Assembly: GCF_007556775.1 (NCBI RefSeq)
Contig: NZ_CP041742.1
Coordinates: 1 to 64,000 of the forward strand
Length of the DNA stretch: 64,000 nt
Source: Lysobacter lycopersici
GTDB lineage: Bacteria > Pseudomonadota > Gammaproteobacteria > Xanthomonadales > Xanthomonadaceae
Reading direction: 5' to 3'
Part shown: one piece after another, positions 61,544 through 62,999 of the stretch
How positions within the stretch are numbered: position 1 is the first letter of the stretch
Layout: each line of letters begins with the position of its first letter
Program-made: the position numbers and the translations under genes
The notes under the pieces: generated by a model
What the model saw: the letters and a program-made list of their open reading frames with translations, nothing else
Told to the model about the DNA's origin: nothing
Databases searched by the model: none

Positions 61544-61566
61544 CGAAGGCTGCGTTGGCGAGAACT

Positions 61567-62835
61567 TCAGGCGGTCTTTTCCGCCTTAGGTGTCTTTTCT
61601 ACCGCAGGAATGTCGAAGACGAGTACTGTCAGTATCAGCTCGCGATTTGCATCTGCTGGATGGTGCATGACATATCGATATCCTGATTGATGCTTCCAGT
61701 TGAGCGTACGTTTGTAGAATTCGTGCGTCTCGCTTGTTGCCTTGATTTCTTCCAGAACTTTGCTCGTGTTTTTGTTCTTGTTGAATATCAAAATAGCGGT
61801 CTTTGTGTCACGCCATGAAGAATAGCCAAGGAGCTGATCGATGGTTTCTTGGTAGACCTTCTTGCCTTTCCAAAATTTGCACTCACCAATGAACACGTTT
61901 TTTCCGTCGATACGCAACAAAATATCGGTTTTTCCTCCAGCATTGAACGTTTCGCCGGTTGCTTGTCCCTCAAACTGTCCGTTGAGTTGCACGAGGTAGT
62001 GATCTCGCAGCGCTTCTTCGCCCATTGTCGCGAATGTGGATGGGCTTCGTTCCATCACTTGCGTCATGTTCTGAATCACGGTGAGCACGTGCTCGTAGTG
62101 CTCCACACTCATAGTTGGTTCTGGTTCGAAGGGCGCTGCTGATGCCTTTGGAAGAGTTGGTGCAACCTTCTTACGTATCGTTGGGGCGGCGAAGGTTTGC
62201 GGAGCATGGGAGCGTACTTTTAACGGTATACCAAGCGCAGCAACTCGACCTTGATTCGCGAGCAATCGCTCCTTGCGCTTTCGGACCGCGGTTTCGGCAA
62301 CGGCATAAATACCATTGTTGAAGCCACTCATATCTTTTCTAACCCAATCCAAGTGTCGATCAATCTCATCAAGTTGACGATCCAGCGAAGGTCTGATGTC
62401 CGTATTCATGTCATGCGGGATTTCAAACGACAGGATGAGGTGCTGGCCAACCACTTTTCCTCTTGGCGGCGACATAGTAAAAGTGCTCGCTCTTGCCTTG
62501 AAAAGATCGCCTTCTCCAGCAAAAGGGACATCAATGTCGATCTGTTGACCGGGAATGTATACCGGGCGGCTTTCGTCTCTGATCCAACGATTTCCGTGAT
62601 ATCGGGCGTCAACTTGCGTTTCGCGTTGATCTGCCGTCATTTCATCGCGTAGTAGGCTCGGTGGCTCAATGGTGTACTTTTCGACAAAGTATTGGACCAA
62701 GTCATCTTCCGACGTATTGAGTAAGCGGTTGGCCTCAAGCCCTTCGATTTCCCTAATAATCTGATCGCGTTGATGGTCAATCACGTTCCGCAATTCGAGA
62801 TCGGAAAATAGGTACCCCTTGTCATACGCGCTCAT
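61567..62835 (-). CDS. PD-(D/E)XK nuclease-like protein, AT-richer island gene
   Basis: Not a named family member. The 422-residue protein has two parts. The N-terminal 220 residues carry VIDHQRDQIIREIEGLEANR, LVQYFVEKYTIEPPSLL and ILSFEIPHDMNTDIRPSLDR, probably a helical partner or recognition domain. The C-terminal 150 residues carry a nuclease core: GKTDILLRIDG, then VFIGECKFWKGKKVYQETID, which fits D-(x)n-ExK with Q further on. GAGGTTTGTTATG gives a good ribosome-binding site. The gene has clearly lower GC than its neighbours, with T-rich codons, suggesting horizontal transfer. Phage-defence or restriction function is possible. Confidence 0.62.
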   Translation of the reverse strand: MSAYDKGYLFSDLELRNVIDHQRDQIIREIEGLEANRLLNTSEDDLVQYFVEKYTIEPPSLLRDEMTADQRETQVDARYHGNRWIRDESRPVYIPGQQIDIDVPFAGEGDLFKARASTFTMSPPRGKVVGQHLILSFEIPHDMNTDIRPSLDRQLDEIDRHLDWVRKDMSGFNNGIYAVAETAVRKRKERLLANQGRVAALGIPLKVRSHAPQTFAAPTIRKKVAPTLPKASAAPFEPEPTMSVEHYEHVLTVIQNMTQVMERSPSTFATMGEEALRDHYLVQLNGQFEGQATGETFNAGGKTDILLRIDGKNVFIGECKFWKGKKVYQETIDQLLGYSSWRDTKTAILIFNKNKNTSKVLEEIKATSETHEFYKRTLNWKHQSGYRYVMHHPADANRELILTVLVFDIPAVEKTPKAEKTA

Positions 62836-62999
62836 AACAAACCTCGATCACTAAGTGCGTCTTTAATTTATTTTCCCAGTTCACGTATCAATATGTGAGA
62901 CTGATTCACAATGTTGACATTTCCAGCGAGCGCAGCTCGTCTAAGGTCAATTACCGCAACTAGGCGTGTGCCGCTTACCCGACTTTTGTCAGCACGACA

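Follow-up and report, generated by a model that had tools for sequence, protein, structure and literature searches.

A candidate single-gene anti-phage nuclease of the PDC-S54 family, probably horizontally acquired, in Lysobacter lycopersici

The first 64,000 nucleotides of the Lysobacter lycopersici contig NZ_CP041742.1, referred to here as the window, carry a gene of the PDC-S54 family close to their right-hand end. The gene probably represents a horizontally acquired, candidate single-gene anti-phage nuclease, in which an N-terminal sensor would gate a DNA-cutting nuclease domain. The domain build, the conserved active site, the mobility and the modularity of the protein are drawn from sequence or from structure prediction. 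The family was previously listed as a defence candidate, the corresponding preprint being Payne et al. 2024 as referenced in PMC12988326, and the window gene is an additional member of this predicted kind.

The gene and its base composition

The gene is an intact open reading frame with an ATG start at exactly 61,567-62,835 of the minus strand, the stop codon lying within these coordinates, and its product is 422 amino acids in length. Its GC content is 48.9%, against a mean of 66.7% (sd 2.0%, minimum 62.3%) in equal-length stretches of the window outside 61.3-63.1 kb. The GC3 value is 0.52, against 0.82-0.93 in four genes nearby. The island of deviating base composition described in the initial annotation is therefore real. 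A GC profile places the AT-richer stretch at 61,560-62,985 (approximately 1.4 kb, with approximate ends), and the PDC-S54 gene is the sole gene inside it. Judged from this composition, the stretch is probably a transferred piece of DNA. There is no tRNA gene within the 64,000-nt window and no clear boundary repeat at the edges of the stretch.

The flanking genes encode an ABC-2 permease and a protein whose match to YkuD (L,D-transpeptidase) is weak and below the cut-off, as identified in a Pfam scan that covered four proteins only in this part of the window. No defence genes were found among these flanking proteins on either side. The host genome (G000; 2.6 Mb, one contig) contains a single copy of the gene. 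When each of the two flanking genes was searched for on its own in 60 relatives, no clean empty site for the window copy was found. The distance between their homologues is approximately 50 kb in G012, 256 kb in G015 and 1.1 Mb in G032; in other relatives the two are on different contigs.

Family assignment and domain architecture

The protein has one match in PADLOC-DB, namely PDC-S54 (E 6.9e-167), with residues 6-411 of the protein aligned to positions 4-408 of the 410 in the model. The same model also matches 18/18 homologues of the alignment used for structure prediction (A1). In PADLOC-DB 2.0, PDC-S54 is listed as a single-gene phage defence candidate. The single-gene arrangement proposed in the initial annotation is thus supported. 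Searches of Pfam (0 families at E <= 1), NCBIfam and PDB sequences returned no match for the whole protein, the N-terminal half included, and only PADLOC names it; the earlier description of this half as unrecognised still holds. Residues 254-388 are also covered by PHROG 9664, a family of unknown function (E 2.4e-08).

The two-part layout proposed earlier is reproduced in an AlphaFold model built from A1 (mean pLDDT 77.6, pTM 0.44). The N-terminal domain spans residues ~1-200 (62,236-62,835, minus strand) and is closed by a predicted helix of about 50 residues (residues 148-200; 62,236-62,394, minus strand). This is followed by a low-confidence linker (residues 201-243; 62,107-62,235, minus strand; pLDDT under 50 at 198-239) and an alpha/beta C-terminal domain, the predicted PD-(D/E)XK nuclease domain (residues 244-412; 61,600-62,106, minus strand), which was delimited from VIA-align scores and motif conservation. 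The linker measures 34-44 residues across 51 homologues, mostly 40-41. The median identity in the 51-row alignment is 20% for the N-terminal domain and 44% for the nuclease domain. The former is the more diverged in 1275/1275 pairs, which are not independent of each other. This faster divergence fits the expectation for a sensor.

The 51-row alignment consists of 52 chosen loci minus L017, with plasmid records included only where regions had been fetched. Two homologues are each split over two reading frames (L017:6605-7848 and L022:9983-11197), and are either decaying copies or assembly errors; both were excluded from A1 and from the 51-row alignment. The homologue at L016 is cut by a contig end.

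The nuclease domain and its active site

The D-ExK-Q core read from the sequence in the initial annotation, comprising GKTDI, GECKFW and a later glutamine, proved to be real and is retained almost without exception. The predicted catalytic aspartate D304 of GKTDI (61,924-61,926), E318 and the conserved glutamine after the core, Q334 (61,834-61,836), are present in 51/51 homologues, as is E295 of a (G/A)E(T/A)FN motif (61,951-61,953). K320, which with E318 and C319 forms the predicted catalytic ExK (ECK; 61,876-61,884), is present in 50/51, as is E274 (62,014-62,016), likely the active-site helix glutamate according to its role in the superfamily. All of these codons lie on the minus strand.

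Comparison of the model with PDB chains by VIA-align placed OkrAI at the top (Z 9.9, 3.5 A, 142 residues), followed by BamHI and BglII (both Z 9.2), McrC (8.3) and then Can2, NucC and SduA (6.0). The identity to OkrAI, BamHI and BglII is only 9-11%, and this method commonly gives a best Z of 7-8 even to models that have no clear match. Foldseek alone gave no structural match at E <= 0.001. The fold call is therefore based on the VIA-align ranking and the motifs together: a D...ExK core with an upstream glutamate and a later glutamine, and an endonuclease-like fold in the predicted model, as in the PD-(D/E)XK superfamily. The C-terminal domain is thus predicted to be a PD-(D/E)XK endonuclease with an OkrAI/BamHI-like fold, and the protein is probably DNA-cutting. 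The initial annotation had asked for structure prediction of both halves; the predicted C-terminal fold is that of restriction endonucleases, and a non-nuclease fold, which would have spoken against the proposal, did not emerge.

Comparison with known systems

The protein resembles PDC-S54 in its full-length profile match, in being a single gene and in the location of other copies inside or beside defence systems. No difference was found, the window copy merely standing alone, and the family is itself a prediction. The description of the gene as restriction-like holds in part: the predicted endonuclease fold agrees with it, but a strict site-specific enzyme with a protecting methylase does not, as no methylase flanks the gene in the window. 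OkrAI, BamHI and BglII share the predicted nuclease fold (Z 9.9-9.2), whereas the window protein has an extra N-terminal domain and lacks the adjoining methylase of type II restriction-modification, its flanking genes being those for the permease and the weak YkuD protein.

Shedu has been described as a single protein with a variable N-terminal part and a PD-(D/E)XK nuclease, forming a tetramer with an N-terminal clamp on DNA ends, as summarized in a review (PMC12904381). The window protein has the same combination of parts in one chain, and SduA is among the structural matches. Membership of Shedu was rejected, as the SduA_C domain (PF14082) is absent from the window protein and from the whole genome, and hhalign against three Shedu-type loci gave a probability of 0.2%. 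The working principle may nevertheless resemble that of Shedu. The canu (caspase-nuclease) system, reported to use an MBL-fold nuclease activated by proteolysis (PMC12799240), is similar in that defence parts are reused across systems with a caspase among the partners. It differs in that the nuclease here is a predicted PD-(D/E)XK enzyme with no caspase encoded by its flanking genes, and in that the caspase-helicase described below is paired with a separate N-terminal domain and not with the nuclease. There is no helicase (HamB) among the genes on either side of the window copy, as would be expected of Hachiman (HamAB).

The N-terminal domain as a separable module

Folded alone by AlphaFold, the N-terminal domain reached a pLDDT of 85.3 and a pTM of 0.76. 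Neither Foldseek nor VIA-align (best Z 5.2) yielded an outstanding known fold for it, an absence that is not evidence that the fold is new. A type III secretion chaperone or START-like fold was considered and set aside (Z 3-4.5, within noise). Profile hits to an inner dynein arm light chain and to a membrane protein were likewise dismissed, as they look like long-helix artefacts. Weak Pfam and PADLOC matches appear for single alignment members only.

Plasmids of Bosea vestrisii and Rhodopseudomonas sp. BAL398 also encode the domain as a stand-alone protein of 201 amino acids. The N-terminal profile matches the two proteins at E 1.2e-29 and 2.8e-30, respectively, and hhalign gave a probability of 99.5% for the Bosea protein. 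Within a few bases downstream of both genes, a gene for a DEAD/DEAH-helicase protein begins. The Bosea helicase protein combines a caspase domain (Peptidase_C14, E 4.5e-12) with a DEAD helicase (E 6.4e-21), and its Rhodopseudomonas counterpart is 78% identical to it over its length. As the N-terminal proteins themselves are 70% identical, the pair (L107:5974-9691 and L108:5953-9665) is conserved between these two alphaproteobacterial plasmids. TIR-domain genes are located close by on both. The N-terminal domain protein and the caspase-DEAD/DEAH-helicase likely form a two-gene defence system. Obligate pairing was rejected, as 2/6 plasmid loci with the caspase-helicase have the N-terminal domain and 4/6 do not, the six having been examined out of 14 plasmid records. 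A third stand-alone version, of 191 amino acids, occurs on Aminobacter plasmids (L116:6998-7573; three records, two of them examined), where a ParB-like gene lies upstream of its gene and a very large helicase-related gene adjoins it on the opposite strand.

The nuclease domain, in turn, is found under a different N-terminus in 344-amino acid proteins of an E. coli plasmid (L105:7782-12207) and of a Pantoea plasmid (L111:5668-6702). The E. coli gene is followed by a gene for a 1020-aa helicase, with retron St85 and ptuA genes beyond; megablast against E. coli complete genomes revealed no near relatives of this alternative nuclease. Matches to the nuclease part only in three genomes of the family (L030, L031 and L032 in G292, G102 and G257; E ~3e-4 to 6e-4) make it likely that the nuclease family is wider and includes other N-termini.

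Since the N-terminal and nuclease domains are found apart, the two halves are separable modules. This is the main support for assigning a sensing or docking role to the N-terminal domain and an effector role to the nuclease, and it suggests that the sensor is exchangeable. It can be tentatively proposed, with rather less confidence than the reading of the gene as a defence nuclease, that one portable infection sensor serves two killing devices: a fused PD-(D/E)XK nuclease and, on the Bosea and Rhodopseudomonas plasmids, a caspase-helicase encoded directly downstream. A single trigger would then result in the cutting of DNA by the first device and of protein by the second.

Distribution and mobility

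The gene is rare and patchy. It was found in 3/100 relatives and in 9/395 genomes of the family, of which six have full-length matches and three the weak nuclease-part matches given above. Across the phylum, N-terminal domain profiles detected it in 2/398 genomes, each of these counts including the host genome itself. Such rarity rules out a housekeeping gene, and the comparison across relatives called for in the initial annotation did not reveal a gene that is fixed among them. A total of 19 loci were collected in named genome contigs, which represent several bacterial phyla and a single Woesearchaeota bin. The nearest homologue among the tree rows is from a Dokdonella MAG and is 80% identical.

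Plasmid carriage was seen in 25 records, 14 of them with 80% or more of the protein covered at a single place, and the carriers include haloarchaeal, cyanobacterial and Streptomyces plasmids. There are two phage records. Viral contigs numbered 14 in an alignment search and 0 in a single-sequence search.

In place of an empty site for the window copy, a plasmid site was used. The gene is whole on the Rhizobium plasmid pMK-2 (L090:9974-11224), and two Agrobacterium plasmids lack 1263 bp at this site, where their flanks match those of the full version at 99.5-99.7% identity. The remnants are annotated as 130 and 91 amino acids (L109:5974-6366 and L110:6007-6282). Deletion is the simplest interpretation, since the first 120 codons are still in place, and it indicates that the gene is dispensable to those plasmids.

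Neighbouring genes and alternative readings

Type I restriction genes adjoin the PDC-S54 gene in 5/19 loci, with hsdM at L011 and L013 and hsdR at L014, L017 and L021. L011 and L014 share one gene order: hsdM, an hsdS-like gene, one open reading frame, PDC-S54 and hsdR, all in one direction; the L011 hsdR was assigned through its 83% identity to that of L014, and the L014 hsdM by length and motif only. Among 125 neighbouring open reading frames of the 19 loci, six match type I specificity models and six match type I methylase models, within the best 25 of 384 models. Other loci have single defence neighbours: a type IV-like enzyme (L018), a type II methylase (L019), AriA (L020), GajB (L034), a SEFIR/TIR protein (L007), an Mrr-like nuclease (L010) and a MADS2-like methylase below the curated cut-off (L015). 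A retron Ec67 gene is directly upstream in Rhizobium indicum, and a restriction subunit S and a toxin-antitoxin pair are near the gene on a Thauera plasmid. No defence family was found among the scanned neighbours at L016, L005, L009, L022 and L038. These identities cover selected proteins and serve as examples, not as a rate. In six Lysobacterales genomes, 61 neighbour proteins matched 86 PADLOC families, including Gabija proteins and PD-T4-6, against 58 families from 54 random-stretch proteins (1e-15). This represents no clear excess near the gene in these genomes; seven loci were fetched besides the window, and L040 was left out. The neighbours vary from locus to locus among the plasmids and genomes examined and no partner is constant, in keeping with the single-gene definition of PDC-S54.

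The anticodon nuclease PrrC is encoded inside a type I operon and guards type I restriction. A PrrC-like role, in which a standby nuclease is unleashed when a phage disables the resident type I enzyme, is the main rival to the preferred reading because of the operon position seen in some genomes, where the gene sits between the hsdM and hsdS-like genes and hsdR. It is nonetheless unlikely. Most loci, the window included, show no type I genes among those neighbouring proteins that were scanned or annotated, so a type I partner is not obligatory, and the lone window copy would have to be a stray or the guard of a distant system.

It is a little harder still to see in the protein a lone restriction-type enzyme, whether type II solitary or type IV-like, that recognizes a fixed or modified DNA sequence through its N-terminal domain and needs no further trigger. 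The nearest structural matches are indeed type II enzymes and McrC, and the N-terminal domain is the variable part; but no methylase gene adjoins it in the window, and a mere reader of DNA sites poorly explains a separate N-terminal domain beside a caspase-helicase. Carriage on plasmids and viral contigs could also point to a nuclease that serves the element itself through element competition, DNA repair or exclusion of related phages. This is very improbable in view of the chromosomal copies that lie within or next to restriction, Gabija and retron genes and of the deletion on the Agrobacterium plasmids; moreover, protection from a rival phage would still amount to defence.

Proposed mechanism and significance

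For the preferred reading as a sensor-gated defence nuclease, the following scheme can be envisaged. The N-terminal domain would assemble the protein, presumably as an oligomer, and would sense or dock on something made during infection. This signal would free the gated nuclease, which may then cut DNA, either that of the phage or all DNA in the cell. The trigger could be a DNA replication or repair intermediate, as hinted by the helicase partner of the stand-alone N-terminal domain, and this is the weakest step of the scheme.

PDC-S54 is not named in the main texts of the open-licence literature searched, and a search of open-licence texts with few terms found no link between the N-terminal domain and a caspase-helicase. 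According to PMC13092281, 13/31 further validated systems have PD-(D/E)XK domains, and a relative may already be among these.

With the window gene, a predicted single-gene defence family gains a chromosomal member, and its likely catalytic residues are defined. Should the N-terminal domain prove to be an exchangeable sensor, the two systems in which it occurs would provide a direct route to what this domain senses.
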